Source of the DNA: Rivularia sp. PCC 7116
GTDB taxonomy: Bacteria > Cyanobacteriota > Cyanobacteriia > Cyanobacteriales > Nostocaceae
Direction of reading: 5' to 3'
Length of the DNA stretch: 64,000 nt
Assembly: GCF_000316665.1 (NCBI RefSeq)
Contig: NC_019678.1
Coordinates: forward strand, 4,154,001-4,218,000
In this document: positions 22,591 to 39,473 of the stretch, piece after piece
Layout of the letters: the number at the start of each line of letters is the position of its first letter
Numbering within the stretch: position 1 is the stretch's first letter
The notes under the pieces: model-generated
Seen by the model: the letters and a program-made list of their open reading frames with translations, nothing else
Databases searched by the model: none
What the model was told of the DNA's origin: nothing
Position numbers and translations under genes: made by a program

Positions 22591-23375
22591 AACTGACGGC
22601 TAATTTGAACAATTGATAATTCAGGTTTAGCAAGTAACCTTTTTGCTGCTTCAACTCGCACTTTGATAACGTATTGCCAAGGTGTTAAACCCGTTGTTTG
22701 TTTGAATAAGCGACAAAAATGGTATTTACTTATATCAAGCAGCGAAGCAATAGTTTCTAATGATAAATCTTCGTTTAAATGCTCGTGAATATATTCTATG
22801 GCTTGTCCGATTTGAGAATTACTTCCTACATCAGCATTAATTTTTGGCTTTCTGGCTGTATAGAATTGCAATAAATGCGCGGCTAAAGCTGTAATTAAAG
22901 AATCTGCATAAAAACGACTTTCTAAAGGATTTGTTTGTAATGCAGTTTTTAAAGATAATCCAATTTGGTAAATTAAAGGATCGGGTTTAGCAAAGTGCGG
23001 CAAGAGTTCAATATCCGAAGTAATTGATTCATAAGCAATACGTTTGAGAAAAGAAGGTTTTAAACTAAGTAATATCAGTTCTTGTTCTCCAGCTGAATGA
23101 ATCCAATGGGGAGTATGAGCGGGAACAATACATACGTCACCGACATTGACTTGTTCTTGTTTTAAGCTTCCATCTAATCGTCGCTCTGCTTCAACTCTCC
23201 CTACAGTTTGAATTGCTAAAACATGTTGTTTGGGATAATGTTCGGGAGTTTCGTGGGGTGGATGCTGGTGATATTCCAAATAAACGTTGTTCAATTGATA
23301 GATGTTCCTTGGTTTGCTACCTGCCTGAATTAATAGAGCAACCAAATTATTACAATCAAAAAGCATCTTTAACAC
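22458..23375 (-). CDS. AraC-family transcriptional regulator, both ends rearranged
   Basis: A 305-codon frame. Residues about 17-130 form the cupin-like sensing domain ([40 protein letters not shown]). Residues about 190-270 are the AraC DNA-binding region: first [25 protein letters not shown], linker helix and the start of the second HTH ([15 protein letters not shown]). The second HTH then stops matching: the frame continues into out-of-frame NTF2-like coding sequence ([12 protein letters not shown]...), so the second recognition helix and its tail are lost. At the other end, the first 16 codons lie in DNA that codes for TnpB on the plus strand, so the original start is probably gone too. 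Regulatory function is doubtful; it may be a pseudogene. Confidence 0.78.
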
Positions 23376-24379
23376 AACTTAAAAAAGAACATCCTTGGTA
23401 CAAAGATATTCATTCCCAAGTATTACAGGAAGTTCCGAAAAGAGTTGAAAAAGCTTTTGATAGATGGTTGAAAGGTGATGCTAACGCGAAGCTCGCCGGA
23501 AAGAGTACTCTGTCCGGCAGACTTCGCGGTAAAAAATCGGGACGGCCGAGATTTAAGGGCGAAGGTCAATATAAGACTTTTACTTATCAGCAGTTCAAGC
23601 AACATCATTTCTCAAATAAAGTGATAAAGCTTTCAAAAATTGGTGATGTAAAAGTAATCGTACATCGTCCTATTCCAGACGGTTTCACAATAAAAACTGT
23701 ATCCGTCACGAAGAAAGCGGATGGTTATTATGTAACTTTGAGCCTTGATGATAAGACAGTACCAACAATTAAACCTGACTTTAACCGGGATAATATTGTT
23801 GGGATTGATGCCGGATTAATAGACTTTATTGTTACGTCTAATAACGAAAGAGTTGCAGCACCAAAATATTTACGTAAAGCAGAACGTAAATTATGTAAAG
23901 CTCAAAAGCGCGTTTCTCGCCGCAAAAAAGGTTCTAATAGACGTAAAAAAGCTATACGAAAATTAAGTAAACAGCATAAAAAGATTGCTGATACAAGGAA
24001 AGATTTTCATTTTAAAATAGCTAATCGACTACTTAAAAATTATGATGTAGTAGCGGTTGAAAAGTTAAATATAAAAGGTCTGGCTAGGACTAGACTTGCT
24101 AAAAGTATTCATGACGCAGGTTGGGGACAATTCATTTCAATACTTACAAACAAAGCCGAAAATGCTGGTTTGGTGGTAATAAAAGTATTGCCTCATGGTA
24201 CTTCTCAAGAGTGTTCAAATTGTGGTCACAAAGTAAAGAAACCTTTGTCTCAAAGAATGCATAATTGCCCGGTTTGTCATACTTCTATTTGCCGTGACCA
24301 AAATGCCGCAATTAACATCAGGAATCGTGGGGCGCACGACCTGTATAAACAAGCTCAGTTTATGTCTAGGGTTGCCTAG
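23213..24379 (+). CDS. tnpB: TnpB, IS200/IS605-family RNA-guided nuclease, 5'-truncated
   Basis: The frame is 388 codons. Similarity to TnpB begins only around residue 40 ([20 protein letters not shown]); the preceding codons lie antisense to the AraC gene, so the native N-terminus is missing. Active-site elements are intact: Asp in [10 protein letters not shown] (RuvC-I), Glu in VEKLNIKGL (RuvC-II), zinc finger CSNCG...CPVCH, and the final Asp in [10 protein letters not shown] (RuvC-III). TnpB is the nuclease guided by omega RNA from the element's right end; the partner transposase TnpA is absent here. A palindrome inserted in frame (23485-23528) adds about 15 residues ([15 protein letters not shown]). 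The true start is uncertain; loss of the wedge-domain N-terminus probably inactivates it. Confidence 0.85.
23485..23528. repeat. Palindromic repeat inserted in the tnpB frame
   Basis: Arms CGCGAAGCTCGCCGGA (23485-23500) and TCCGGCAGACTTCGCG (23512-23527) pair at 13 of 16 positions around AAGAGTACTCTG. It interrupts the conserved TnpB region between FDRWLKG and SGRPRFKG in frame. GC content is well above the surroundings, as expected for a REP-like mobile palindrome. Confidence 0.75.
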
Positions 24380-26689: not shown

Positions 26690-27217
26690 TTATTCCGGAC
26701 GTTCGGGAGGATTTTCAGGAACTCCAAGAGCTTCTTTTAGTTCTTCTTCGCTAATTCCTAACTTGCTTGCTGCTGCACTCAAATCTTTTCTGGGTCTTGG
26801 TCCAAAGGCTTCTTTGATTTGTTGTTTGGTAACACCTAACTTTGCTGCTGCTGCTTTAAAATCTGGTTTAGGTGGTCGTTGACCTTCGCTTAATTCGGGA
26901 GGATTTTCGGGTAATCCTAGAGCTTCTTTTAGTTCTCCTTCGCTAGTTCCTAACTTGCTTGCTGCTGCTGCAAAATCAGGTTGCGGTGGTCGTCCCAGAG
27001 CATCTTTTAATTGTTGTTCTGTAATTCCTAATTTTTCTGCTGCTGCTTTTAAATTTGGTTTTTGTCTTCGGGGTCGTCTTTGTCCTTGGGGTGGTTGGTT
27101 TTGAGCGATAGTTAACGAGGATGGACTAGCTGCATTAATCTTATTGACGGAAGCAAAAGCTAATGTTCCAAGTAATGCGGGAATTGCGGTTAAAGTGAGT
27201 AGTTGATTAAGTTTCAT
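26690..27217 (-). CDS. Secreted protein with four KLGIxExxLKEALG repeats
   Basis: 175 residues. A signal peptide covers about 1-30 (TLTAIPALLGTLAFASVNKINA). A Gln/Pro/Arg-rich linker follows (QPPQGQRRPRRQKP). The rest is four copies of a helical unit with consensus (D/N)(F/L)xAAAxKLGxxxxxLKEALG, separated by Pro-rich spacers (GLPENPPELSEGQRPPKP). I do not know the family; similar AAxxLGxxxxxLxxAL units look like short helix-turn-helix pairs found in secreted actinobacterial and cyanobacterial proteins. The PPQGQR motif also occurs at the C-terminus of the YHYH lipoprotein at 32912. A degenerate copy of the ATTACA/TGTAAT dyad lies upstream (27274-27312). Its role is unknown. Confidence 0.78.
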   Translation of the reverse strand: MKLNQLLTLTAIPALLGTLAFASVNKINAASPSSLTIAQNQPPQGQRRPRRQKPNLKAAAEKLGITEQQLKDALGRPPQPDFAAAASKLGTSEGELKEALGLPENPPELSEGQRPPKPDFKAAAAKLGVTKQQIKEAFGPRPRKDLSAAASKLGISEEELKEALGVPENPPERPE

Positions 27218-27273
27218 AATTAAACTTTGAACTCCGAATCAGTTGCTTACATTTACGATTAAGCCAGTTAAAA

Positions 27274-27312
27274 ATTACATTTGACTTTGGTTTTTGATTA
27301 AAATTTTGTAAT
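27274..27312. promoter_or_regulatory. Degenerate dyad upstream of the four-repeat protein gene
   Basis: ATTACATTTGACT (from 27274) followed by ATTAAAATTTTGTAAT (27297-27312). The same composite, ATTACATTTGACTATG then ATTATAAAATTGTAAT, recurs at 28646-28684. Its right half matches the arms of the perfect dyads at 27979, 32568, 32712 and 35310. It is 57-95 bp from the start of the minus-strand gene, a plausible operator position. Confidence 0.4.
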
Positions 27313-27534
27313 TTAAGTCTTGGAAGAGTAAATATAAGCAAAACCTTGATGAGCGATGATGAATACTTGTGAAGGTTCTGCTTCTCTTGATAATCCCCAT
27401 CAATTAATTGATTGTGATTCTAGTTTTATTGTCGTTGGTTATCTTTACAGGTTTTATCCAGCTTGATTTATATAAGTAGTTAAACATAATTAATTACACA
27501 ATGTTATTGCGAGTGTAACGTTCATCGAAGATGT

Positions 27535-27606
27535 TCCCGAAGGGTAGTGAAACGAAGCATGAGCGCGTTCACCTTTATGTGCGGCTCAGCTGCGGCTCAT
27601 CGCAAG
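27535..27606. repeat. GC-rich mobile-palindrome-like stretch
   Basis: Within AT-rich DNA this stretch has several GCGAAGC/GAACGC-like words and CGGCTCAGCTGCGGCTC, which folds on itself. It resembles the composite palindromes at 6540-6605 and 21395-21500. It is part of a 990-bp gap (27218-28210) that otherwise holds the repeat at 27668-27782 and the dyad at 27979. Confidence 0.5.
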
Positions 27607-27667
27607 GGTTATGGCTAATTTTCTTAGCTTTTAATAAGAGTAAATAATTTTGTTCACTTACTTAAAC

Positions 27668-27782
27668 AGGACTTACGCAATTGTCATAAGGCTTTGGTTG
27701 GTGCTTGATAGGAAAGCCTTATTATTGCGTTAGAAATCAAGCGAACTGTCACTGCACCCTACAAGCAAAATGTGCCAGTTAA
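27668..27782. repeat. AGGACTTACGCA MITE, damaged copy
   Basis: The left end AGGACTTACGCAA is intact. The right part TGCACCCTACAAGCAAAATG and GTGCCAGTT matches, in reverse orientation, the left interior of the intact copy at 32388-32511, but the final inverted end is missing. It is probably a rearranged or deleted copy. Confidence 0.6.
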
Positions 27783-27978
27783 ATCTTCAAAGCCAAAAGT
27801 GTTAGCATCTAATAATTTTATATGCTCGAAGATAACTTTATCGGTATTAGCTCTTTATTCAAGTAAGTATTTGAGCGAATATATGATTAAAATATATAAC
27901 AAAAATAGAATCACTTATTCATGTGATTTAGACGTATTAAATTGATGATAATTTTATCGAGTTTAGCTTTAGTTTTCG

Positions 27979-27994
27979 ATTACAATTTTGTAAT
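27979..27994. promoter_or_regulatory. Dyad ATTACA-ATTT-TGTAAT
   Basis: A perfect 6+6 dyad with a four-base spacer, 216 bp upstream of the small basic secreted-protein gene. It has the same arms as the dyads at 32568, 32712 and 35310. Proposed operator for a dimeric regulator. Confidence 0.45.
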
Positions 27995-28210
27995 TTTAGT
28001 TCTAGATTTGTGAAGCTAAAATAGAGCTATTCGCGAAAAAATCATGAATCTTTCTCAAGGTTCTGTTTATCTTGAGACTCCCCTATGTCAATTAATCAAA
28101 GTACTAAATTGTAAAGGGACGAAAGACACTTTTTTTAGGACAAATATACAGATTTTGAATCTGAAGGCTTTCTAGTATTTAGTTATCCACTCATTTTAAG
28201 AGGTTTAATT

Positions 28211-28486
28211 ATGAATTGGAATCAAGTTTCAACAGGAATATTGGTAATAGCGTCTTTAGTAACTACTGCATTGCCTGTATCAGCCAGTCCCTACCGTACT
28301 TCTAACAACGATTATCGAAGAGAAAAAGTTGTTGATGTAGTTGATATAAATGTAAATTTAAGAGGTAAAAAGAAGCGAAGAGTTAATAAAAAGAAGTTCA
28401 AGGAGGTTTGCGTTAACAAGCGTGTCCGAACAAGAAGAGGTGTTAGAAAAGTTCGGGAATGTAAATTAGTTAGAATCCGCAGATAA
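28211..28486 (+). CDS. Small basic secreted protein
   Basis: 91 residues. A signal peptide (about 1-25, STGILVIASLVTTALPVSA) precedes a short, strongly basic mature part: KVVDVVDINVNLRGKKKRRV, NKKKFKEVC, NKRVRTRRGVRKVREC. Two cysteines about 20 residues apart could form a disulfide. The start is supported by AAGAGG eight bases before the ATG. No family is recognised. The charge suggests binding to an acidic polymer such as exopolysaccharide or DNA, but this is inference. It lies inside the dyad-marked block (27979 upstream) and has a hairpin terminator at 28521-28557. Confidence 0.75.
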   Translation: MNWNQVSTGILVIASLVTTALPVSASPYRTSNNDYRREKVVDVVDINVNLRGKKKRRVNKKKFKEVCVNKRVRTRRGVRKVRECKLVRIRR

Positions 28487-28520
28487 GAAAAACAATACTG
28501 ATTTTTTGTAATGCGAATGC

Positions 28521-28557
28521 AAAGCCTTTACAAGCGATGAAAACTTGTGAAGGCTTT
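28521..28557 (+). terminator. Stem-loop after the small basic protein gene
   Basis: AAAGCCTT-T-ACAAG (28521-28534) pairs with CTTGT-G-AAGGCTTT (28544-28557), followed by ACTTGTATT. A related stem-loop with the shared words GAGCGATGATGAAT and CTTGTGAAGGTT occurs at about 27343-27379. The U-tract is weak, so it may instead be part of a repeated regulatory module. Confidence 0.5.
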
Positions 28558-28668
28558 ACTTGTATTAATACCCTTCTTTAATTAATCTTTGACATTTTTA
28601 ATTATTATTTTACTTTAACTACCTCGGTAATTAAAGTTAGGAAATATTACATTTGACTATGATTGTTG

Positions 28669-28684
28669 ATTATAAAATTGTAAT
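28669..28684. promoter_or_regulatory. Imperfect dyad ATTATA-AAAT-TGTAAT
   Basis: One mismatch from the perfect dyad, preceded by ATTACATTTGACT (28646-28658) as at 27274. It lies between two convergent genes, so a direct operator role is unclear; it may be a remnant of a duplicated upstream region. Confidence 0.3.
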
Positions 28685-28731
28685 TGAATCAACAACAAAA
28701 GCAATTATAATTCTGGCTAAAATTCGTTTAA

Positions 28732-29412
28732 CTAGGTTACTTTGTGAGTCACTAAACCATCTTTGACGTGAATAATGCGGTTGGTTTGGTTGGCGACATC
28801 TGGCTCGTGGGTGACAATAACGATTGTGATACCTTGACTATTAAGTTCGGTTAGTAAATTCATCACTTCCCCGGAAGTTTGGGTGTCCAATGCTCCTGTG
28901 GGTTCGTCTGCTAAAACAAGTTTAGGACGGTTGACGAGGGCACGGGCAATGGCTACTCGCTGCTGTTGTCCGCCAGACATCTGATTGGGACGGTTTAACA
29001 TTCGCTCTGCTAAGCCAACGCGGATTAAGGCTGACTCAGCCCGTTTTTTGCGTTGCGATTTAGAAATACCTGCATACACCATTGGCAGCATGACGTTTTC
29101 TAAAGCCGTGGAGCGAGGTAGTAAATTAAATTGCTGAAACACAAAACCGATATGTTGATTGCGGATATATGCCAACTCATCATTAGTTAGTGTAGTCAGA
29201 TTTCTACCTTCTAGAACATAATATCCAGATGTTGGGCGGTCGAGACAACCAATAATATTCATCAGTGTAGACTTTCCCGAACCAGACATCCCCATAATTG
29301 CAACATATTCGCCTTCTTCGATAGATAAATTAATCCCCTTGAGTATTGGAATTTTGCTTTCCCCTAAACAATAAGTTTTTTCAATGCCTTCCATCCAAAT
29401 CATAGTTGCCAT
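28732..29412 (-). CDS. MacB/LolD-type ABC transporter ATPase
   Basis: 226 residues, the ATP-binding subunit of a MacB-like exporter in which ATPase and permease are separate chains. Walker A is GMSGSGKST, the signature [15 protein letters not shown] and Walker [13 protein letters not shown]; the Q-loop lies in [20 protein letters not shown] and the H-loop in VTHEP. FNLLP and [12 protein letters not shown] are typical of the MacB/LolD/FtsE subgroup. It begins 33 bp after the permease stop codon with AGAGGA ten bases before the ATG. It is last in the three-gene operon adaptor-permease-ATPase. Confidence 0.93.
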
Positions 29413-29445
29413 ATTCGTAATCCTCTAAGCTATCAGTATGCTGTT

Positions 29446-30756
29446 TCAATCGCTCCTGAGCGCTTCGATTGGGTCAAGTCTGGCAGCATTACGAGCGGGT
29501 ATTACTCCAGCTAGCAACCCAATGATAAATGTCAAACCAAATCCGAATAAAATCGACCATAGTGAAATCACAAGGGGAAATTTAAACGAATTTGAGGCAC
29601 CGAAGCCAATTACAATCCCCAAGCAGATACCAATCGCTCCTCCCATTGCTGCAATAATTACTGCTTCAGCTAAAAACTGGCTCAAAATAGCACTATTAGT
29701 AGCTCCAACTGCTTTGCGAATCCCGATTTCTCTTGTCCGCTCAACCACTGACACAAGCATAATGTTGGCAATGCCAATACCCCCGACAATTAAAGAAATT
29801 GCGGCGACTGCTACTATCATGATGGTAAACAGTTTAGATGTACTGGTAAGGGTTTCGATAATATCAGCTGAATTGATAATTCTAAAATCGTCTTTATGGT
29901 CTTTTGCGGGAAAAATACCATGTCGTACCCGCAACAGATTTGTAGTTTGATATTCGGCAGCGTCTAACCTATCCTGGCTTTTGACTTTGACATAAATTCC
30001 TCTGACGGCAATTCCTTTAACAGAGTTGTTTCCTACTAGCCGAGCAGACATATTGGTGAGGGGAATATAAATTAGTTCATCTGGGTTTTGCCTTCCTTGC
30101 GCTCCTTTCGTCTCCATAACGCCAATTACCTCATAGATTTGTCCTTGAATGCGGATTTGTGAACCTTCTGCACTACTTCCCGAACCCAGTAATTCATCTC
30201 GTGCGGTGGGACCTAAAACTGCCACAGGTTTTCCCGCATCAACTTCCTCTTGAGTAAAAAATCTACCTGTTTGAGGATGGGTGTTGCGTACATCTGGATA
30301 GTTGATATCGGTGCCAATAATTGTCAACGAGTTGTTGTTTTGGGCATAAACAACTTGAGCGTTTTGTTCCAGGAAAGCAGATACGCGCTCAACTCCTAAA
30401 ACCTGTTGAGCGATCGCCTCAGCATCTTCCAAGGTTAACGTTGTTGCACTCCCAGCCCCCTGCCGGACTCTACCGCTTCTAGCTGCACCCGATCGCACTT
30501 GCAAAATGTCGCTTCCAAGGGATTGTAATCGTTGCTCGGTAGCTTTTTGAGTACCTTGACCAATGGCGGTAACGGCAATCACTGCTGTAATACCAATGAT
30601 GATGCCTAACATTGTCAACATAGTGCGGAGTTTGTTATTCCACAACGCTTCAACAGCCATTGTCAGAATTTCCACGTGCGATACCGTAGATACTTTTTTA
30701 ACTCGTGGTTTGAAGTCAAGTGCGTTCATTTTAATCAACTTAAAAGGGCATATCAC
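29446..30756 (-). CDS. MacB-like ABC transporter permease
   Basis: 436 residues. The first membrane helix is near 50-72 (LRTMLTMLGIIIGITAVIAV), then a MacB periplasmic core domain (about 75-300), and three C-terminal FtsX-type helices (about 315-345, 370-395, 400-425) with RTREIGIRKAVGA between the first two and PARNAARLDPIEALRSD at the end. These mechanotransmission-type permeases do not form a membrane channel for the cargo but work on substrate in the periplasm with a MacA-like adaptor. The frame starts with GTG at 30756 overlapping the adaptor's TGA (GTGA), which suggests translational coupling; ATG 30729 (MNALDF) is an alternative start. Confidence 0.92.
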   Translation of the reverse strand: MICPFKLIKMNALDFKPRVKKVSTVSHVEILTMAVEALWNNKLRTMLTMLGIIIGITAVIAVTAIGQGTQKATEQRLQSLGSDILQVRSGAARSGRVRQGAGSATTLTLEDAEAIAQQVLGVERVSAFLEQNAQVVYAQNNNSLTIIGTDINYPDVRNTHPQTGRFFTQEEVDAGKPVAVLGPTARDELLGSGSSAEGSQIRIQGQIYEVIGVMETKGAQGRQNPDELIYIPLTNMSARLVGNNSVKGIAVRGIYVKVKSQDRLDAAEYQTTNLLRVRHGIFPAKDHKDDFRIINSADIIETLTSTSKLFTIMIVAVAAISLIVGGIGIANIMLVSVVERTREIGIRKAVGATNSAILSQFLAEAVIIAAMGGAIGICLGIVIGFGASNSFKFPLVISLWSILFGFGLTFIIGLLAGVIPARNAARLDPIEALRSD

Positions 30757-32261
30757 AAAGGAGGAGGACCACCACCAGGGGGACGATTTCTGTTACTATT
30801 TCTTTGAGAACCTGATGGAGCACTAAGCAAAACTTTCTCGTTTCCTTGTAAACCGGAACGTACTTCAGTCTTACTATTAACTGTTAGTCCGGTTTTTATT
30901 GGTACGAATCGAATCCCTTTTTCAGTAATTACTCGTACTCCGGTGCCGTTCTTTTGCCGTAGAATCGCCACCGTTGGGATGACAAGCACATTATTTAATT
31001 TACCTGCATTGAATTTTGCATTGACGTTCATACCGGGACGCAGCAGAGTTTCAGAATCGGTAAAGTTTACTCTGACTTCAAAGCTAGTGACGTTAGAAGT
31101 TACCGTTGCTTGAGGCGCAACTTCAGCAACTTTGCCTTTAAAAGTTCTATCAGAATAGGCATCAGCGATAACAGTGACTGACTGCCCGACTTTTATTTTA
31201 CTGATATCTGTTTCAGCCACATTTGCTACAACTTGATAGTTTGATGCCAAGGAGAGAATCGAAGAAGAAGTTGCGCTAGATACTTCGCTTCCCGATGTGG
31301 TAGGTGTGACAAAACCACCTGGATCTGCATACTTGGCAGTGACAATGCCACTGAAAGGAGCGCGAATAATTGTATTTTGAATCTGTGTTTCAATCGTTTT
31401 TAAGTTGCCCTGTTGTTGAATCACTTGTGCGCGTGCAGCTTCAATGTCTTCGGTGCGCGTTCCTGCTTTTTGCAGTGCTAAAGCTTGTTGCTTTTCTTTG
31501 ACTGCTGCCTTTAATTGCTCGATATCTTCAGTGCGCGTTCCTGCTTTTTGTAATGCTAATGCTTGCTGTGCTTCATTTACCGCAGCTTGGGCGCTATCGC
31601 GTTCGGCACGTTGTTGGTTGAGAATTTGTAGGGAAATGGCACCAGCATTATATAGTTGCTGATTGCGGTTAAAATCATCTTCAGCTTTTCTTAAATTTGC
31701 TTGAGCGCTTTTTAAACGTGCTTGAGCCTGAGCAATATCTTGAGGACGATTACCCGCAATTGCTTTTTGCAGATTAGCTTGAGCTTGCTCTAATTGTGCT
31801 TGTGCTTGAGCAATATCTTGAGAGCGATTACCCGCAATTGCCTTTTTCAAATTTGCTTGAGCCGCAGCTAGAGAACCCCGTGCTTGAATAAACTGCCCTT
31901 GTAGGGTTGAGTCATCCATGCGTGCCAGGATTTGTCCGACTTTTACATAGTCCCCTTCCTTTACAAGCAAGCTCTTTAACCGTCCAGAAGTATCGGGGCT
32001 AACGTTGGTTGATTGTTTGGCTTCAATTGCACCGTTGGCTAAGATAGTAATAGGTAACGTTTCTCGTTCAACTGGAACCGTCAACATTTTGCTTCTGGCT
32101 TTTTGAGCGAAAGAAATCACTACCTGGCGGTAAATAAGGTATCCACCACCCGTTAATAAACAGAGAATCAGTAAACCTATTAGCCACTTGCTTAGTTTAT
32201 GTTTGAACGAGCCTTTTCCTAAAGGCTGAAATATCGCATGTTGGGAAGATTGAAGTTTCAT
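30753..32261 (-). CDS. MacA/HlyD-like periplasmic adaptor protein
   Basis: 502 residues. A single N-terminal membrane anchor (about 24-46, WLIGLLILCLLTGGGYLIY), split barrel/lipoyl segments (VSPDTSGRLKSLLVKEGDYV and ...IIRAPFSGIVTAKYADPG) and a long coiled-coil hairpin (about 120-300) identify the membrane-fusion protein of a tripartite exporter. The hairpin contains internal duplications: AIAGNR(S/P)QDIAQAQA occurs twice and LALQKAGTRTEDIE twice. The C-terminus is Pro/Gly-rich (RPPGGGPPPL). First gene of the operon; no TolC gene is next to it. The cargo is unknown; MacAB relatives export macrolides, peptides or lipoproteins. A MITE (32388-32511) lies in its upstream region. Confidence 0.93.
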   Translation of the reverse strand: MKLQSSQHAIFQPLGKGSFKHKLSKWLIGLLILCLLTGGGYLIYRQVVISFAQKARSKMLTVPVERETLPITILANGAIEAKQSTNVSPDTSGRLKSLLVKEGDYVKVGQILARMDDSTLQGQFIQARGSLAAAQANLKKAIAGNRSQDIAQAQAQLEQAQANLQKAIAGNRPQDIAQAQARLKSAQANLRKAEDDFNRNQQLYNAGAISLQILNQQRAERDSAQAAVNEAQQALALQKAGTRTEDIEQLKAAVKEKQQALALQKAGTRTEDIEAARAQVIQQQGNLKTIETQIQNTIIRAPFSGIVTAKYADPGGFVTPTTSGSEVSSATSSSILSLASNYQVVANVAETDISKIKVGQSVTVIADAYSDRTFKGKVAEVAPQATVTSNVTSFEVRVNFTDSETLLRPGMNVNAKFNAGKLNNVLVIPTVAILRQKNGTGVRVITEKGIRFVPIKTGLTVNSKTEVRSGLQGNEKVLLSAPSGSQRNSNRNRPPGGGPPPL

Positions 32262-32387
32262 ACGCTACGAATGCACAATTAGTGCAAGAAGCAACAATAA
32301 ATGATTCTGATTGCGTTTTGTGCGGCTCTGTGTGGGAGTATCCCAAGAACTTTATTAATTACTTGTTTATATTTATCTAATGATTTT

Positions 32388-32511
32388 AGGACTTACGCAA
32401 CTGGCACATTTATGCTGTAGGGTGCTGTGACACTTATTCGATTTTTTGACGTAATAGTGAGGGTTTTAGTGTCACGCACCACCCAAGTTGTGTGACACTT
32501 GCGTAAGTCCT
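32388..32511. repeat. AGGACTTACGCA MITE, intact copy
   Basis: A 124-bp element with perfect 13-bp inverted ends AGGACTTACGCAA (32388-32400) and TTGCGTAAGTCCT (32499-32511). Inside are a second dyad (GTGCTGTGACAC...GTGTCACGCACC) and no open frame. Related full or partial copies lie at 27668-27782, 47741-47839 and, degenerate, at about 3180-3245. It lies between the adaptor gene and the dyad pair at 32568/32712. Confidence 0.85.
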
Positions 32512-32565
32512 GGATTTAATACTTTTTAATTACAGTATATCGATATAACAATTAATCCTGTGTTT

Positions 32566-32792
32566 AAATTACAAAATTGTAATTTTGAGGCGTAAATTTT
32601 GTTTTTGACCAGCAATTATTTTGTGACAAAATCCGTACTTTCTATATTTAGAAAAGGATTTAATATTTATTAATCACAACATATTGACATAAAAATTTAC
32701 TGTTTGTTTGAATTACAAAATTGTAATTTTAATACGTAAATTTTGTCGTTAAAAAGTAATTATTCTAGGATAAAATCTGTTTCCATAGGGTT
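32566..32792. promoter_or_regulatory. Tandem pair of ATTACA-AAAT-TGTAAT regulatory modules
   Basis: Two modules 144 bp apart share a dyad and its flank. Module 1 has the dyad at 32568-32583 followed by CGTAAATTTTGT (32591) and CAATTATTTTGTGACAAAAT. Module 2 has the dyad at 32712-32727 followed by CGTAAATTTTGT (32735) and TAATTATTCTAGGATAAAAT. Arms extend to AAATTACA/TGTAATTT in the first. The modules lie between the divergent adaptor and YHYH-lipoprotein genes, 185 bp (module 2) upstream of the lipoprotein start. A dimeric or OmpR-like regulator is the likely ligand. Confidence 0.5.
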
Positions 32793-32911
32793 ATAACTAA
32801 AAATTGCTAAAATGCTCCCTAAATATATGTTCCTACAGTTTTTAGTACCCTTTTTCTAGTTATTTGTATGATATCTGGATTAACAGCAATTCAAGCAGGG
32901 AATTATATAAT

Positions 32912-34039
32912 ATGAAGGTACTAATTATTATTCTTACAGGTGTTATAGCGGCAGGCTCATCATTTAGTTGCACTAAACAGAAACCAATTGCAAGCAGCAC
33001 TAACATGAGCGAGATTAGCGACAATCGGGTTAAAAATCAAGATAGTGGAGAAGAAGCAGAAACTGCACTTACACAATACGAAACCCTTGGTATGACGTTT
33101 CTAAAAAATGCAATTGTTAAAGATATTACTACCAAAAATTGTACTTTGGTAGATGGAACCCAAACTACTTGTCAATCAATTACTGTAAGCGGATACCCGT
33201 CTAATTATGAAGCAGGACCATTTTGTCCGCGAACAACCGCTGACTCCAAAGAAACAACTGGTATTTGGCTTGATGGTGAGAATATCTACGATTTAGATGG
33301 TAAGTTTATTATGAAACTTCCTGAGATATACGATGACGAGAAATTTATACTATATGATTCAAATAACAATGTAAATGTTACTGATACGAAAGAAGAGTTT
33401 GATGGAGCGGCTAAACCTCAAGTAGAAGAGGAATACAAATACAATTGTGTTGAAGGAAAAATAGAATGGCTTGAAGGCGGCTCACCGATTCAAACTACTG
33501 TTGAAATACCTGCAAACCCAGTCAAAAGTGATACCGTTACCAATCTTGGCAGAAATAAAGTCGGAGTAACTATTAATGGGGTTGTAATTGATAGTCCAGC
33601 ACCGGTACAAGCAATTCTCTCAGCCTATACTATAGCTGCTTTTGATGATTGTGGAGGTCATATTAATCCAGTCATTGGGTATCACCAACATGGTATTACT
33701 GGATGTTTTGGTGTCGAAAGCAAAGTTGATGGTGAAACGAAATTAGTTGGATACGCTATGGACGGGTTCCCTATCCATAGTACTTATGAAGAAAGTAATC
33801 AAACTCCAGAACTGGATGAGTGCGGAGGTCATGAAGTAGAAGGATTAGGATACCATTATCACGCAAATAAAGCAGCAAAAAATTCAGTAATTTCTTGTTT
33901 TCATGGAACTTTGGTAAAAGGTCAGCAAGGTAGAAGGGGTGGTAGACCTCGTAGACCACCGCAGGGTCAAAGACCACCTGGAAATATGACTCCGAGAAAA
34001 GGCATTTCTCCTGTGGTATTACCTCCAAAACAAGATTAA
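32912..34039 (+). CDS. YHYH-domain lipoprotein 1
   Basis: 375 residues from ATG 32912 (the frame is open 16 codons further upstream without function). A signal peptide with lipobox-like AGSSFSC puts the lipidated Cys at residue 20. The YHYH domain covers about 90-345: FCPRTTADSKETTG, VGVTINGVVIDSPAPV, DDCGGHINPVIGYHQHG, YAMDGFPIHSTYE, DECGGHEVEGLGYHYHANK (YHYH at about 314-317) and CFHGTLV. The many His, Cys and Asp residues suggest metal binding, but the domain's function is unknown. The C-terminus is Arg/Pro/Gly-rich (GGRPRRPPQGQRPPG), sharing PPQGQR with the secreted repeat protein at 26690. It is followed 30 bp later by a second YHYH gene; regulatory dyads lie upstream. Confidence 0.85.
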   Translation: MKVLIIILTGVIAAGSSFSCTKQKPIASSTNMSEISDNRVKNQDSGEEAETALTQYETLGMTFLKNAIVKDITTKNCTLVDGTQTTCQSITVSGYPSNYEAGPFCPRTTADSKETTGIWLDGENIYDLDGKFIMKLPEIYDDEKFILYDSNNNVNVTDTKEEFDGAAKPQVEEEYKYNCVEGKIEWLEGGSPIQTTVEIPANPVKSDTVTNLGRNKVGVTINGVVIDSPAPVQAILSAYTIAAFDDCGGHINPVIGYHQHGITGCFGVESKVDGETKLVGYAMDGFPIHSTYEESNQTPELDECGGHEVEGLGYHYHANKAAKNSVISCFHGTLVKGQQGRRGGRPRRPPQGQRPPGNMTPRKGISPVVLPPKQD

Positions 34040-34069
34040 CCAATATCTAAGTAATAGGTTCTATATAAT

Positions 34070-35182
34070 ATGCAAGTACGACGACTTCCAATTCTTATTC
34101 TGACAGCAGTTTTCGCGGCTAGCTCATCATTGAGTTGCACGCAACAGACACCAAATTCAAGCAGCGCAAACACAATTGATGCTAGTAAGCGTAATGGTGA
34201 CGAAGAAACAAAAAACGCTCAAAGTTCGCCAACCGCAACAGACTGCACAACCTATAAAAAAGCTTTTGGGTTACACCTCGATTCTGAGGCAATTAATTGT
34301 ACTGCTGATTCCCTTGAGGTAACCGCTACAGGTCTTCCCGATTTGACTTCCCGAAGCAGTGAAGATGTACCAATGGTAGGCATCAAATCTTGGATACAAA
34401 GAGTTGCGATTCCATACGATTATCAGTGGCGTATTCCTCTCAAACCTCAGTGGTTAGATGAGCCTGTTGAAGCAAGTCCGCGTGGACCGATAGCAGTTGC
34501 AGTTGACGGTGTGCCTATTTTTCATTACGAACGACGACCTGATGTTTCAACTTCCCTAGATAACTATGAGGAGCGCAATGATACCGTTGTTCAGGGCGAA
34601 TTAGACCAATGTGGCGGTCACGCGGGGCAGGGTGAAGACTATCATTATCATTACGCTCCGGTTTGCTTGATGGATAAACATAATCCTGAATTACCTATTG
34701 CCTTTGCTCTTGACGGCACGCCTATCTATTTCGGTGAAGGTGGTGATGAATATTATGGACGGGGTAGATACAGCGACCTTAGTTATCTACCCGATCAAGA
34801 ACTTGATGAGTGCAACGCGCTGCAATTACCAGATGGTAGTTATGTGCATTACACAACCAAAACCCCACCATATGTTGTAGGTTGCCATCACGGATTTTTT
34901 GACTCTAAACTACAAATAGAACCTCCCACCTTCGATGCATTGGCGCAGCGTACATCAAGCCCCTTTGGTGGTAGCTATGGTGAGCCTGTCTCTACGCTTA
35001 TCACTGATTTTAAGAAAAATGAAGATGGAGAATATCGTTTGGGTTTCAATTCTTTAACTACACCTGGTGTAACAAGTGCAGTTGTGTACCGTAAGACTTC
35101 ATCGGATTGTTGGGAGTTTGAGTACCAAAAAGTTGCGGGGGAAACAGTTCAGACAACAACAGCCTGCCGACACCAACACTAA
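34070..35182 (+). CDS. YHYH-domain lipoprotein 2
   Basis: 370 residues. A signal peptide with lipobox-like ASSSLSC puts the lipidated Cys at residue 23. The YHYH domain has PIAVAVDGVPIFHYERR, LDQCGGHAGQGEDYHYHYAP (YHYH at 191-194), CLMDKHNPELPIAFALDGTPIYFG, LDECNALQLPDGSYVHYTT and VVGCHHGFF. It differs clearly from lipoprotein 1, so this is an old duplication or separate recruitment and not a recent copy. It lacks the Arg/Pro-rich tail. It is 30 bp downstream of gene 1 and very probably co-transcribed. The function of this domain is not known. A MITE and a dyad separate it from the response-regulator gene. Confidence 0.85.
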   Translation: MQVRRLPILILTAVFAASSSLSCTQQTPNSSSANTIDASKRNGDEETKNAQSSPTATDCTTYKKAFGLHLDSEAINCTADSLEVTATGLPDLTSRSSEDVPMVGIKSWIQRVAIPYDYQWRIPLKPQWLDEPVEASPRGPIAVAVDGVPIFHYERRPDVSTSLDNYEERNDTVVQGELDQCGGHAGQGEDYHYHYAPVCLMDKHNPELPIAFALDGTPIYFGEGGDEYYGRGRYSDLSYLPDQELDECNALQLPDGSYVHYTTKTPPYVVGCHHGFFDSKLQIEPPTFDALAQRTSSPFGGSYGEPVSTLITDFKKNEDGEYRLGFNSLTTPGVTSAVVYRKTSSDCWEFEYQKVAGETVQTTTACRHQH

Positions 35183-35190
35183 CGGTTACA

Positions 35191-35302
35191 TACTCCCTTC
35201 CCGGTGGAAGATTACCGGTTTTGATAGAGGGAGGGAGTGAGAGAGGGAGGGAGTGAGAGAGAAAGAAATTGTTATAGGAAATCTTAGAGTGGGATAGGAG
35301 TA
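35191..35302. repeat. MITE-like element with CT-rich core, copy B
   Basis: The reverse-orientation partner of 11862-11968. Ends are TACTCCCTTCCCGG and TGGGATAGGAGTA, with GGAAGATTACC and GAAATCTTAGA inside; the core is GAGGGAGGGAGTGAGAGAG. 112 bp, no coding capacity. It starts 9 bp after the YHYH-2 stop codon and ends 8 bp before the dyad at 35310. Confidence 0.75.
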
Positions 35303-35309
35303 ATTCTTG

Positions 35310-35325
35310 ATTACAAAATTGTAAT
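35310..35325. promoter_or_regulatory. Dyad ATTACA-AAAT-TGTAAT upstream of the response-regulator gene
   Basis: A perfect 6+6 dyad identical in arms and spacer to those at 32568 and 32712. It ends 61 bp before the GTG start of the two-component operon, a position suited to autoregulation. Confidence 0.5.
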
Positions 35326-35386
35326 GTGAGTTTTTGAGTAGCAAGTTTAAAATATTACTATCGCGTGCGGAAGCTATTGAATAGTT

Positions 35387-36070
35387 GTGAATGTTCTATT
35401 TGTCGAAGATGAAGCAAAAATTGCTGACTTTGTTCGGGCTGGACTAAAGGAGCAAGGGTTTACTGTAGATTACTGCGATAATGGGAATGAAGGTTGTTTA
35501 CTAGCCTTAGAAAACGAATATGATGCAATTATTTTGGATATTATGGTTCCTGGAAAAGACGGGCTATCAATTCTCAAACAATTGCGTCAAAAAGGTAAGA
35601 ATACTCCGGTAATTTTATTAACGGCTCGGAATGAACTTGATGATAGATTACAAGGGTTGAACTTGGGTGCTGATGATTACATTGCCAAACCTTTCTTTGT
35701 GGAAGAATTAGTTGCTCGCATCCATGCTGTTATCCGTCGTACTGTGGGAGAGCGGCAAAATTATATTGCTGTGGGAGCTTTAAAATTAGATAGAATTACT
35801 AGGGAAGTTACTTGCAATCAAAAAGCGATTGAGCTTACCACTCGCGAGTTTAATCTTCTAGAATATTTGATGCGATCGCCAGAAAGAGTTTTTACCAGAA
35901 CCCAAATATTAGAGCATGTTTGGGGTTATGATTTTAATCCAAATACCAATGTTGTAGACGTTTGTATCCAGCGGATTCGGAAAAAAATTGACCCTATTAA
36001 CAAGGGAGAATGGATTGAAAGTATTCGCGGAGTTGGTTATCGCTTTCGTCAAGCAGATACTCATTCATGA
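35387..36070 (+). CDS. OmpR/PhoB-family response regulator
   Basis: 227 residues. The receiver domain covers about 1-118 with acidic pocket VEDE, phospho-acceptor Asp51 (ILDIMVPGKDG), the Thr switch in LLTARNE and Lys in DDYIAKPF. The winged-helix domain (about 125-222) has ELTTREFNLLEYLMRSPERV, and the recognition region ending VDVCIQRIRKKI and IESIRGVGYRF. The start is GTG 35387. The gene overlaps the kinase gene by ATGA. It resembles RppA/CopR/heavy-metal-type regulators (closest style: RppA-RppB, NrsR, CusR), which suggests response to metals or envelope stress; this is inference. Confidence 0.93.
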   Translation: MNVLFVEDEAKIADFVRAGLKEQGFTVDYCDNGNEGCLLALENEYDAIILDIMVPGKDGLSILKQLRQKGKNTPVILLTARNELDDRLQGLNLGADDYIAKPFFVEELVARIHAVIRRTVGERQNYIAVGALKLDRITREVTCNQKAIELTTREFNLLEYLMRSPERVFTRTQILEHVWGYDFNPNTNVVDVCIQRIRKKIDPINKGEWIESIRGVGYRFRQADTHS

Positions 36071-37521
36071 AACTAGCTTCGTTTCGTCTGAGAATTGCTT
36101 TATTCTCTTCAGTTCTTGCTGGTAGTGCTTTGATTGGGTTTGGTGGAATTTCCTGGTTGCAAATTTACAATGCCAACATTAGCCGTTTGGATGCACAAAT
36201 TATTAATCAGTTAATGCGAGGAAATGGTCCACCAAAACGAGATATTACGCAACTTTACCAGAAACAGAGATGGAAATTATACTCCGATTCACTTTCCGAT
36301 GTATTAGGAGCAAATACAAAAATACCTACGGCTCTATTAGTACTTGACAAAGAGGGTAATAAACTTTACCAAACTCAGGAAATCATTTTAGATAGGGATT
36401 TGCATCGTCTGCTTAATAAGCAACTAAAATTAACAAATCCCTCTCCACTAATAACTGCTCGTAATCTATCCAGCAAGGAATTACCTCCTGCCCCACTTCC
36501 CATTCTCTTAACTACAGAATCTACAGAAACAGGAACTTGGCGAATTGGTACGGCTAAATTTCGCAAAATTCAAATAGCAGTTGCTGTTAATTTAGAAGTA
36601 GTTAATCAAGAAATGGCTGCGATTACCAATATTTTCTTGATTTCTATCCCTGGAGTATTGTTATTAATTGCAGTTGGTGGGTGGTTGCTGTCTGGAAGTG
36701 TTTTACGTCCCATAAATCAGTTAACTAGTGAAATTCAACTAGTTAGTGCCAAAGGATTAGATCGAAGAATTCCTCTAGATAAAACAGATGTGGAATTTGT
36801 GGAATTGATTCAAGTATTTAACCAAATGCTCGAACGTTTAGAACGCAGTTTTCATCAAGCTTCTCGTTTCAGTGGTGATGCTGCTCATGAATTAAAAACT
36901 CCATTAACGATTTTGCAAGGAGAATTAGAAAGAACATTACAGCAGGTAACTCACGGAAGTGAAGTACAGCAGCGTTTGAGTTATTTATTGGATGAAGTTC
37001 ACCGTCTGAATGGAATTATCCGCAAATTGTTACTGTTGTCTTTAGCCGATGCCGGAAAATTGAGTCTATACCTGGTGAAGGTGGATATTTCGGAGTTATT
37101 ATTTCAGATGTTAGAAGATATGGAAATGTTAGCTCCTCATCTGAGAGTACAAACTAATATTGCAAAGGGATTAAAAGTTAAAGGTGACAAAGATTTGCTG
37201 ATGCAGGTTTTGCAAAATCTAATTAGTAACGCTATAAAATATAATCTTGCTGACGGTTGGATAAAAGTTGATGCCTTCGCAAATCAAAATTCACTTCAAG
37301 TTACTATTGTTAATGCATCTGAGGGAATAAAAGATGAGAATAGAACTCGAATTTTTGACCGTTTCCATCGAGGAGATCCATCTCGCAACCGTAAAGTAGA
37401 AGGAATTGGATTGGGTTTGAGTCTTGCTCGCGAAATAGTTCGTGCCCATCATGGTGAGTTAATCCTTAATCCAGCTTCGGAAGGAGAGACATCTTTTAGT
37501 CTTTGTTTACCGGTGGTGTGA
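36067..37521 (+). CDS. Membrane sensor histidine kinase (EnvZ/CusS-type)
   Basis: 484 residues. Two membrane helices (about 9-31 and 186-210) enclose a periplasmic sensor of about 150 residues that contains no known sensor motif. Then come a HAMP domain (about 210-262), HisKA with His274 in DAAHELKTPLTILQGELE, and HATPase with NLISNAIKYN, a degenerate G1 region (VNASEGIKDENRTRIFDRFHRG) and GIGLGLSLAREIV. G1 lacks the usual DNGxG (here VNASEG), a common variation in the CusS/RppB type. It overlaps the regulator gene by 4 bp, so the two are translationally coupled. Its 3' end overlaps the convergent LRR gene by 15 bp. Confidence 0.93.
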   Translation: MKLASFRLRIALFSSVLAGSALIGFGGISWLQIYNANISRLDAQIINQLMRGNGPPKRDITQLYQKQRWKLYSDSLSDVLGANTKIPTALLVLDKEGNKLYQTQEIILDRDLHRLLNKQLKLTNPSPLITARNLSSKELPPAPLPILLTTESTETGTWRIGTAKFRKIQIAVAVNLEVVNQEMAAITNIFLISIPGVLLLIAVGGWLLSGSVLRPINQLTSEIQLVSAKGLDRRIPLDKTDVEFVELIQVFNQMLERLERSFHQASRFSGDAAHELKTPLTILQGELERTLQQVTHGSEVQQRLSYLLDEVHRLNGIIRKLLLLSLADAGKLSLYLVKVDISELLFQMLEDMEMLAPHLRVQTNIAKGLKVKGDKDLLMQVLQNLISNAIKYNLADGWIKVDAFANQNSLQVTIVNASEGIKDENRTRIFDRFHRGDPSRNRKVEGIGLGLSLAREIVRAHHGELILNPASEGETSFSLCLPVV

Positions 37522-38772
37522 GGTGAAATAGCAATTGAGTATTTTTTGAGGTTTTTCTTTTAAAATCTCTGGTGGAATTGAAATTGGATTTTTAGATAAA
37601 TCAAGATGTTTCAGCTTTGTAAGTTGTTTTATTTCTATAGGTAAATTACTAATTTTATTTTCGCTCAGAAAAAGATATTCTAAATTCATAAGCTTTTCGA
37701 TTTCTGTTGGTAAAGTAGTTAATTGATTTTCCTGAAGGTTTAGAGTTACTAAATTAGTTAGATGTCCGATTTCTTTTGGTAAATTACTTAAGTGATTTAC
37801 ATTTAAGATAAAATATCGTAAACTAGTCAGTTTTTCAATTTCTGTTGGTAAGCTATTAAGCTTATTCTCGCTGATATCGAGAAGCTCTAAATTAGATAGT
37901 TGACCTATTTCAGGGGTTAAGTTATTTAGTTGATTTTGAATTACATAGAGAGATTTTAAGTTAGTCAATCTAGATATTTCTGCGGGTAACTTAGTAAATT
38001 GATTGGAACATAGATACAACGTTTTTAAATTAATCAATTTGGCTTGCGATAGCGGTAAATCACTCAATTGATTAACAGATAGGTTAAGTTGTTTCAACTT
38101 GCTGAGTTTTCCAAGCTCAGGAGGTAAGCTAGTTAGTTGATTCTCTCCAATTTCTAATAGCTCTAAATTCGCGAGTTGTCCGATTTCTTTTGGTAAAGTT
38201 ATAAGTTTATTGTTTCCTAAATCAACTTTTTGTAAATTGATTAATTTTCCAAACTCTTCTGGTAAGTAAGTTAATTCATTTTCAAGCAAATCTAATTCTT
38301 TCAACTTGCTGAGTTGTCCAAATTCGCAGGGTAAGCTAGTCAGTTGATTTCCTTCTAGACAAAGTTCTTGTAACTTAATGAGTTTTCCAAACTCCGGAGG
38401 TAATTGATTTAATTGATTGTTGCTCAAATCTAGATATTCTAAATTATTTAAATTACCGATTTCTTCAGGTAAATTATTTAAATAATTGTCATCCAGACTG
38501 AGTACCTTTAAATTAGTCAGCTTTGCGATTCCTAATGGAAATGATTTGATTAGATTGTTAGATAAGTCGAGAAGCTTCAATTTCTTGAGTTGCTCAATTT
38601 CTTCTGGTAATTCAGTGAGGTGATTATTTCCTAAATATAGATATTCTAAATTAGGTAGTTTTTTTATTTCCTTTGGTAAAAAGTGTAAGTCTTCACCAGA
38701 AAGGTTTAATGTTGTTAATCCTTCTTTTTCTGTTTGTTCGATTATTTTTAATAGTTCTTCTTCGTTCATCAT
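37507..38772 (-). CDS. Leucine-rich repeat protein (about 16 LRRs)
   Basis: 421 residues. After a short cap (MMNEEELLKIIEQTEKEGL) comes an uninterrupted array of about sixteen 23-residue LRRs with consensus LxxLxLxxNxLxxLPxEIxxL (bacterial LPxEIGxL type). No signal peptide, kinase, GTPase or C-terminal domain is seen, so it is probably a cytosolic protein-binding scaffold. Its tail (PISIPPEILKEKPQKILNCY) matches the end of the neighbour at 38823, so the pair arose by duplication, the arrays then growing or shrinking. Similar arrays precede Roc/COR GTPase domains in other cyanobacterial proteins; those domains are absent here. The 3' end overlaps the kinase gene by 15 bp in convergent orientation. 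Confidence 0.88.
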   Translation of the reverse strand: MMNEEELLKIIEQTEKEGLTTLNLSGEDLHFLPKEIKKLPNLEYLYLGNNHLTELPEEIEQLKKLKLLDLSNNLIKSFPLGIAKLTNLKVLSLDDNYLNNLPEEIGNLNNLEYLDLSNNQLNQLPPEFGKLIKLQELCLEGNQLTSLPCEFGQLSKLKELDLLENELTYLPEEFGKLINLQKVDLGNNKLITLPKEIGQLANLELLEIGENQLTSLPPELGKLSKLKQLNLSVNQLSDLPLSQAKLINLKTLYLCSNQFTKLPAEISRLTNLKSLYVIQNQLNNLTPEIGQLSNLELLDISENKLNSLPTEIEKLTSLRYFILNVNHLSNLPKEIGHLTNLVTLNLQENQLTTLPTEIEKLMNLEYLFLSENKISNLPIEIKQLTKLKHLDLSKNPISIPPEILKEKPQKILNCYFTSHHR

Positions 38773-38822
38773 TCATAAGTTATCTATAGTGTAATATGTT
38801 AATTTAGTAATCTTAATTTCAA

Positions 38823-39473
38823 TTAATTCGAGCCATGATTTTGTAATTTGAAATAAAAATTAATAATTTGCTTGGGACTCTTCTTTAATACCCCTAGTGG
38901 AATAGATATTGGGTTTTTAGATAATTCTATCTCTATAAGTCCGGTAAGTTTTTTTATTTCCACAGGTAAACTAGTAAGTTGATTTCCGCCGAGGTAGAGG
39001 GTGTGTAATCTAGTCAGTTGACCAATATCTGAAGGTAATTCATTTAATTGATTTCCGCTGAGATAAAGAGATTTTAACCGAGTCAGTTGACCAATTTCTC
39101 TGGGTAATTCACTTAGATGATTACTTTCTAAATCAAGACACTGTAAATTATTAATTTTTCCAATTTCTGGAGGTAAGCTATTGATTTGATTTTCTTCCAG
39201 GTCAAGTTCTTCTAAATTAATAAGTTTACCAATTTCTGATGGTAAGCTACTTAATTTATTGCGACTTAAACAGAGATATTCTAGATTAGTTAGATTTCCG
39301 ATTTCTCTAGGTAAAGTAATCAGTTGATTTTCATCTAAATTAAGTACTTTTAAATTAGTGAGTTGACCGATTTCTTTCGGTAACAGCTTTATGCTTTGAC
39401 GGGCAAGGTTTAATGTTTTTAATCCTTCTCTTGCTGCTTGTTCAATTTGCTCTAGTAATTCTTCTTCAGTCAT
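38823..39473 (-). CDS. Leucine-rich repeat protein (about 7 LRRs)
   Basis: 216 residues. Same architecture as the gene downstream: cap MTEEELLEQIEQAAREGLKTL, then seven 23-residue repeats (LPxEIGxLxNLxxLxLxxNQL), then tail NPISIPLGVLKKSPKQIINFY. It is 50 bp upstream of the larger LRR gene on the same strand and is probably co-transcribed with it. The shared cap and tail with a different repeat number point to tandem duplication followed by unequal exchange between repeats. No catalytic domain; the binding partner is unknown. Confidence 0.88.
   Translation of the reverse strand: MTEEELLEQIEQAAREGLKTLNLARQSIKLLPKEIGQLTNLKVLNLDENQLITLPREIGNLTNLEYLCLSRNKLSSLPSEIGKLINLEELDLEENQINSLPPEIGKINNLQCLDLESNHLSELPREIGQLTRLKSLYLSGNQLNELPSDIGQLTRLHTLYLGGNQLTSLPVEIKKLTGLIEIELSKNPISIPLGVLKKSPKQIINFYFKLQNHGSN

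Follow-up and report, generated by a model that had tools for sequence, protein, structure and literature searches.

In the 64,000-nt window of the Rivularia sp. PCC 7116 genome (8.73 Mb in total) analysed here, the block at 26690-37521 encodes an OmpR-type response regulator with its sensor histidine kinase, a secreted four-repeat protein (hereafter rep4), a MacAB-type exporter, two putative YHYH lipoproteins and a small basic secreted protein. Comparison of the promoters of this block with those found in other genomes makes it quite likely that the regulator acts, probably as an activator, on its own operon, rep4, the MacAB genes and a distant acetyltransferase gene, through an operator based on the dyad ATTACA-N4-TGTAAT. 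The initial annotation of the block had proposed that the regulator controls the whole set. By comparative genomics, such control is well supported for the regulator-kinase operon itself, for rep4 and for the MacAB genes, and it is plausible for the basic protein; the proposal was too wide in taking in the YHYH genes, and too narrow in leaving out the acetyltransferase. No recognisable description of this cyanobacterial regulon was found in the literature searched, made up of open-licence papers only.

The dyad and its composite form

The exact ATTACAN4TGTAAT dyads listed in the initial annotation at 27979, 32568, 32712 and 35310 were all recovered, together with its degenerate dyads, for which one-mismatch forms are found at 27297 and 28669. 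The stretch 27274-27312, noted there as degenerate, corresponds exactly to one composite operator, in which the dyad is followed after 17 bp by a third half-site, TGTAAT, with one mismatch overall. The operators of the block, and the hexamers associated with them, are the following.

27274-27312, minus strand: rep4 composite operator, made of dyad 27297-27312 (one mismatch), 17 bp and TGTAAT (27274-27279)
27979-27994, plus strand: exact dyad in front of the gene for the basic protein, of the regulator type, with no third half-site at 17 bp
28017-28022, plus strand: -10-like TAAAAT, 22 bp after the 27979 dyad; TAAAAT is also found 22 bp off on the opposite side
28646-28684, minus strand: orphan composite operator, made of dyad 28669-28684 (one mismatch) and an exact third half-site; it lies between convergent gene ends and points left
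32545-32583, minus strand: MacA composite operator, made of exact dyad 32568-32583, 17 bp and TGTTAT (one mismatch), with TATACT at 28 bp
32689-32727, minus strand: second MacA-facing operator, a tandem duplicate, made of exact dyad 32712-32727 and a third half-site with two mismatches
35310-35325, plus strand: regulator operator, a dyad whose extended match to the Escherichia coli HprR/CusR box is 17/18
35348-35353, plus strand: -10-like TAAAAT, 22 bp after the regulator dyad

Within the window, 11 dyads with two mismatches or fewer were counted, a number reached by 12 of 100 shuffled sequences, so that it is the exact sites, not the mismatched ones, that stand out. The initial annotation had agreed to be refuted by a dyad common at random positions of the genome. 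This is not the case for the exact form: of the 5 occurrences of ATTACAANNTTGTAAT in the whole 8.73 Mb (reversed control 0), 4 fall within the block, and the fifth precedes the distant, Eis-like acetyltransferase gene. When one mismatch is allowed, 13 sites are found genome-wide, versus 2 in the reversed control. The looser ATTACAN4TGTAAT gives 6 sites versus 3 and, with one mismatch, 70 versus 39, and for this reason the mismatched loose dyad is, taken alone, weak evidence. The composite form, ATTACAN4TGTAAT-N17-TGTMAT, has 4 matches with at most one mismatch in the genome of Rivularia sp. PCC 7116 (reversed control 0), located at rep4, at MacA, at the orphan site and at the acetyltransferase gene; with two mismatches the matches are 10, versus 3 in the control.

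The site at 35310 reads GATTACAAAATTGTAATG, identical in 17 of 18 bases to CATTACAAAATTGTAATG, which is given as the HprR/CusR box of the E. coli hiuH-hprR intergenic region; the hiuH-msrPQ operon is among those carrying such a box (PMC9302797). For AgrR of Cupriavidus metallidurans the box is reported as ATKACANNNNTGTMAT; there, the palindrome and a direct-repeat half-site both contribute, the half-site being needed for full activation, and many members of the OmpR family are described as binding direct repeats, and some as binding dyads (PMC7380067). The core box was also found in E. coli SK1144, where an exact HprR box, ATTACAATTTTGTAAT, is located at position 1476 of locus L152. The original work on the HprR/CusR box is reportedly that of Urano et al., 2015 and 2017. 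Judged by its sequence, the dyad is a box of the CusR/HprR/AgrR type, a signature associated in E. coli with copper and oxidant stress, and the regulator's own promoter conforms to the 6-4-6 palindromic form ATKACA-N4-TGTMAT.

Promoter architecture

Among 88 distinct sites at regulator promoters, 60 have a hexamer of the form TAnnnT 22 bp downstream of the dyad, the mean per position being 2.23. By genus, a -10-like hexamer at 21-23 bp is present in 15 of the 18 that have an exact dyad, versus at most 7 for any other 3-bp bin tested. TAAAAT at 22 bp is common to the regulator and the basic-protein promoters of the window, and E. coli hprR has TATGAT at the same distance. A dyad placed just upstream of a -10-like hexamer, as in E. 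coli hprR, is consistent with an activator bound at the -35 position.

Target promoters have a third half-site instead: TGTMAT begins 17 bp beyond the dyad, on the side facing the target gene. This places it 23 bp, or roughly two turns of the helix, away from the proximal half-site; its chance rate at a single position, in this window, is about 1.1%. Each site was attributed to the closest gene that could be recognised, and a short unrecognised open reading frame (ORF) may intervene in some. With at most one mismatch, the third half-site is present at 54/54 distinct rep4 sites, in 18/18 genera, at 7/8 intradiol dioxygenase sites (5 genera), at 3/3 sites of the MacB ATPase (2 genera) and at the only cytochrome b561 site (1/1). 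At regulator promoters it is found in 0 of 20 genera. A -10 element at 19 bp in the rep4 promoter was considered and rejected, because the matched bases belong to the TGTAAT half-site at 17 bp.

Conservation of the dyad with the regulator

The family sample included 192 genomes, 71 with a close ortholog of the regulator, at 76 places, and 121 without. One of these places is the window, 25 derive from 57 dyad-centred stretches and 50 were fetched by regulator; the addition of truncated copies in L062 and L091 brings the regulator upstream regions to 78. An exact dyad is located within 260 bp in 61 of them, and a one-mismatch form in 7 more; exact dyads within this distance are found in 18 of 26 genera. 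Regulator-bearing genomes contain 3.06 dyads each (reversed control 0.70) and the other genomes 0.93 (control 0.64), a difference with p 1.7e-18 in a rank test that ignores relatedness. The composite operator, with at most one mismatch, was detected in 71/71 regulator-bearing genomes versus 23/121 of the others, and at 185 places in the family as a whole, with five matches in the reversed control, as read from the result table.

In a phylum sample of 386 genomes, the regulator was found in 23. The 12 that fall outside the family, selected only for the presence of the regulator, include 8 with an exact dyad, 3 with one mismatch and 1 with none; the -10-like hexamer at 22 bp is present in 10/12, and a third half-site with at most one mismatch in 11/12, on the divergent side. 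In a further set of 16 named loci taken as outside the family, the exact dyad was found in 14, and so was the composite operator with at most one mismatch; the two sets overlap, as L236, L237 and L241 apparently correspond to L194, L197 and L193, and L231, L234 and L239 are from one genus.

One of the truncated copies, L091 (positions 1-1100, genome G130), comprises an exact dyad and fragments of a shortened regulator and kinase; the acetyltransferase gene of that genome has no site. L091 likely represents a decaying two-component system.

Predicted target genes

In the family, the gene divergent from the regulator is most often rep4, whose repeat is xDFxAAAxKLGvTExxLKxALG. Its Pfam matches are fragmentary and helix-turn-helix-like; PF20432 exceeds the whole-protein cutoff, with no single stretch passing. 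No NCBIfam family was found for rep4, no match to PF07813 (Spy/CpxP LTxxQ) was obtained for the two rep4 proteins scanned, and a search of solved structures gave nothing convincing (best E 0.33). The same slot is occupied by LTxxQ (Spy/CpxP/Metal_resist) proteins in L098, L099, L185 and L183, as well as in L233, L238 and L240, above cutoff, and L232, below it. Within the 12 outside-family loci, the slot contains rep4 in four, an LTxxQ-like protein in four, an MsrQ-like one in one, and something else or nothing recognised in three. In Planktothrix (L194) the slot is taken by a ferric-reductase/MsrQ-like membrane protein with PF01794, which scores 36.4 bits against the MsrQ model, whose cutoff is 130.

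Other genes located behind dyads encode a secreted intradiol dioxygenase-like protein (PF00775), cytochrome b561 (PF01292) and MacAB. No intradiol dioxygenase was found in the genome of Rivularia sp. PCC 7116 by a search which, run with no positive control, shows little. In G133, an exact composite operator precedes the gene for a 116-aa PepSY-type membrane protein (L046, 7936-8477, by eye), possibly a further regulon member.

The Eis-like acetyltransferase (PF13527, PF17668, PF13530) is encoded 167 kb left of the window, with a composite operator 55 bp before the gene. Its gene is present in 8/8 genomes of the genus that were searched. An exact dyad lies 55-57 bp before it in 3/3 genomes with an intact regulator; in 5/5 genomes without one, including one with a remnant, the site has at least three mismatches, and the operator is found in 0/5. 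A second copy of the gene occurs in two genomes, without the site.

Both YHYH proteins pass the PF14240 threshold, with 56.5 bits for YHYH-1 and 65.4 for YHYH-2 (gathering cutoff 25). The two dyads located before them, at 32568 and 32712, are oriented otherwise: towards MacA both have TAnnnT at 28 bp and one has a third half-site with one mismatch, while towards YHYH neither has a third half-site or a hexamer at 22 bp. The hexamer at 28 bp is confined to the MacA sites of this genus. Strong relatives of YHYH-1 were found in 3/192 family genomes, one of them truncated (L094/L164), and 4 other genomes have weak matches elsewhere only. YHYH as a core regulon member was therefore rejected as unsupported, on operator polarity and distribution; control by the regulator is possible, but it is not supported, because both sites point at MacA. 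In a contig from a metagenome-assembled genome (L165, 1830-2877), a YHYH gene split over two overlapping frames is divergent from the regulator, with a dyad between them. A published prediction describes YHYH as a metal-dependent hydrolase with a Zn site (PMC7824862).

Evaluation of the proposed regulon and of alternative explanations

The regulator contains a receiver and an OmpR-type winged-helix domain, with phosphoacceptor Asp D51 and also K101 and T79, and is 41% identical to HprR and 42% to CusR. The sensor domain of the kinase is about 150 residues long, and in 29 aligned sequences T150, W158, R159 and M183 are invariant.

A number of observations weigh against control of the proposed genes by a regulator of this type. 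Ten of the 78 regulator upstream regions have no dyad: an exact one is located at 248-344 bp in four of these, the available stretch is only 57 bp in one, and none is near in five; by genus, 8 of 26 have no exact dyad within 260 bp. The composite operator occurs in 23/121 genomes without a close regulator, where some sites may be conserved sequence of another kind, nearly the same 39-mer being repeated in several genomes (by eye). For MacA the third half-site at 17 bp is found at only 5/9 sites (3 genera), all 9 having one at 33 bp. In addition, counts such as these overstate independence, because orthologous promoters share ancestry. The best NCBIfam match of the regulator, TIGR01387 (heavy-metal regulator), is below its curated cutoff (243.1 vs 279.2 bits), as is that of the kinase, TIGR01386 (heavy-metal sensor kinase; 241.7 vs 292.55 bits), and no conserved His or Cys is present in the invariant or near-invariant columns of the 29 sensor domains. 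Finally, the function suggested for rep4 is drawn, by analogy, from its slot.

A CusRS-type copper/silver response, in which the kinase would sense periplasmic metal and the regulon would provide metal resistance, is rather unlikely. In its favour, the box is common to CusR/HprR and AgrR, the best NCBIfam subfamilies of the two proteins are the heavy-metal ones, and LTxxQ/Metal_resist proteins occupy the target slot of some genomes. Both proteins, however, miss the curated cutoffs, the 29 sensor domains without conserved His or Cys argue against a CusS-like metal site, even if Met M183 is invariant, and no copper ATPase, Cus-type RND or multicopper oxidase was recognised by eye in 25 gene clusters behind dyads.

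In several genera the operator lies immediately before MacAB genes, which could point to a response unit for cationic peptides or antibiotics, with the MacAB-type exporter as main effector, as in PhoPQ-macAB or BceRS-BceAB; a review of MacB reports PhoPQ control of macAB and co-evolution of two-component systems with BceAB. This is unlikely, since MacAB frequently went unobserved in the sequence retrieved on either side of the regulator, where rep4 or an LTxxQ protein usually is. Sensor domains of the BceS type are very short, and the one found here, at about 150 residues, is not BceS-like.

Should another regulator bind the dyad, the two-component system being only one of its targets, the 23 genomes with the composite operator and no close regulator ortholog would be accounted for, as would G184, which has rep4 with the operator and no close regulator. 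This is very improbable, given that all 71 regulator-bearing genomes have the composite operator, that loss of the site at the acetyltransferase gene tracks absence of the regulator, and that this box is already established for the subfamily to which the regulator belongs. It is scarcely credible that the dyads cluster through local duplication of promoter segments only and are not regulator sites: duplications are real, in the form of a 125-nt tandem repeat at 32512-32780, holding both dyads between MacA and YHYH-1, and of a 58-nt operator segment and a 51-nt leader-like segment, each present at 27280-28709 as three imperfect copies whose order varies (around 27280, 27962 and 28652), but the same dyad and spacing recur at unrelated genes across many genera, beyond the family too, and the dyad is found at the acetyltransferase gene, far off in the chromosome.

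Genes and other features of the block

All the genes named in the initial annotation were found at their positions by ORF analysis and family searches.

26690-27217, minus strand: rep4, four-repeat secreted protein, with a Sec-type signal peptide (by eye) and four repeats of about 25 aa
28211-28486, plus strand: small basic secreted protein, 91 aa (ORF and family searches)
28490-28640, minus strand: structured stretch behind the orphan operator, with strong predicted hairpins (z -4.61)
28732-29412, minus strand: MacB-type ATPase subunit, a separate polypeptide (family searches)
29446-30756, minus strand: MacB-type permease, MacB_PCD and FtsX (family searches)
30753-32261, minus strand: MacA-type adaptor (family searches)
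32864-34039, plus strand: YHYH-1, putative lipoprotein (PF14240); a better start, by eye, is the ATG at 32912, giving 375 aa
34070-35182, plus strand: YHYH-2, putative lipoprotein, 370 aa (PF14240)
35387-36070, plus strand: OmpR-type response regulator, CusR/HprR/AgrR-like (domain and identity searches)
36067-37521, plus strand: sensor histidine kinase, with HAMP, HisKA (AHELKTPL box) and HATPase (domain searches)

By its relatives the window lies close to Calothrix parasitica NIES-267 (L163), in whose locus the same gene order is found, and the basic protein has a close relative in the same position in L090, from the genus mate G083, which seems to be the same genome as L163. The motif PPQGQR is indeed common to the four-repeat protein and YHYH-1, as initially annotated, but by eye it lies within Pro/Arg-rich stretches. 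The exporter is assigned to the MacAB type by the MacB periplasmic core (PF12704), FtsX (PF02687) and a MacA-like adaptor (HlyD families). Its operon, 32261-28732 on the minus strand, is split, with ATPase and permease on separate polypeptides; the two score below the cutoff of the E. coli-type MacB equivalog (292.4 and 237.7 vs 966 bits), in which the ATPase is fused to the permease.

No minus-strand ORF of at least 20 aa is present directly downstream of the orphan operator at 28646-28684. The structured stretch behind it is possibly a small RNA, or a bidirectional or shared terminator; an Rfam scan which included it gave no match at gathering score. A scan of the block for promoters and terminators revealed no excess over shuffled sequence.

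Between MacA and its operator, a 124-bp element at 32388-32511 has 21-nt inverted ends (AGGACTTACGCAA...). It looks like an insertion of the miniature inverted-repeat transposable element type, as the distance between MacA and its dyad is about 128 bp greater in the window than in L090; a similar end sequence is seen by eye near 27668. Outside the block, an ORF at 23213-24379 resembles, by eye, transposon proteins of the TnpB type and ends in a zinc-finger-like CxxC. Two leucine-rich-repeat genes, at 37507-39473, are convergent with the kinase gene, and in the genus mates L090 and L094 leucine-rich-repeat matches likewise come after the kinase.

Proposed mechanism and comparison with known systems

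The model suggested by these data is that of a self-regulating two-component system of the CusR/HprR/AgrR type with a small extracytoplasmic protection regulon. A regulator dimer would bind the palindrome ATTACA-N4-TGTAAT and, at target promoters, a third regulator subunit would take the extra half-site TGTMAT; the bound subunits would together recruit RNA polymerase, and phosphorylation by the kinase would tune the action of the operator. rep4 would be a Spy-like factor protecting proteins outside the cytoplasm, and MacAB would export or clear damaged or toxic material. Elsewhere, the regulon would add the intradiol dioxygenase-like protein, cytochrome b561, LTxxQ proteins of the Spy/CpxP type and MsrQ-like haem proteins. 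By analogy, from the box, the neighbouring genes and the replacements in the slot, the most likely role of the regulon would be to limit extracytoplasmic oxidant, quinone or metal damage. More tentatively, it could be that an HprR/CusR-like system of ancient origin, with a box and a regulator-promoter geometry kept between E. coli and cyanobacteria and with a three-half-site operator of two-turn offset, commands in rep4 a new, repeat-built class of protection proteins, which replaces factors of the Spy/CpxP type in the slot and acts against oxidants, quinones or catechols rather than metal.

The analysis assigns a precise operator and a predicted regulon to a cyanobacterial two-component system of patchy distribution, together with a mechanism that can be tested. 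An uncharacterised family of secreted repeat proteins, rep4, appears as its most constant target, and its position connects this family with chaperones of the Spy/CpxP type and with redox proteins resembling MsrQ.

With HprRS (YedWV) and CusRS of E. coli, the system shares the 6-4-6 box and the location of the regulator beside target genes, and with hprR also the -10-like hexamer, which lies 22 bp from the box on the hprR side and which cusR lacks. The targets differ, being hiuH-msrPQ and cusCFBA in E. coli and rep4, MacAB and the acetyltransferase here; so does the spacing of the extra half-site, 23 bp from the proximal one in cyanobacteria, whereas the TGTMA-like sequences of E. coli hiuH and cusC, the only two promoters compared, are at about 11 bp. 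AgrRS of C. metallidurans is similar in its box, ATKACANNNNTGTMAT, and, spacing aside, in the presence of an extra direct-repeat half-site, but its targets are those of silver/copper resistance. CopRS of Synechocystis is likewise an OmpR-type pair of a cyanobacterium, and is reported to activate its own operon and an efflux operon (PMC13421787); leaving the box aside, it differs in its targets, copBAC and copMRS, and in its copper signal. As in MacAB/DevBCA exporters, the locus has an adaptor, a MacB-type permease and an ATPase, but the last two are split, and the equivalog or subfamily cutoffs of MacB, LolD, DevA and DevC are missed. Finally, rep4 differs from Spy/CpxP proteins in having a different repeat and no LTxxQ match but, like them, it is small and secreted, and is encoded in the same operator slot.

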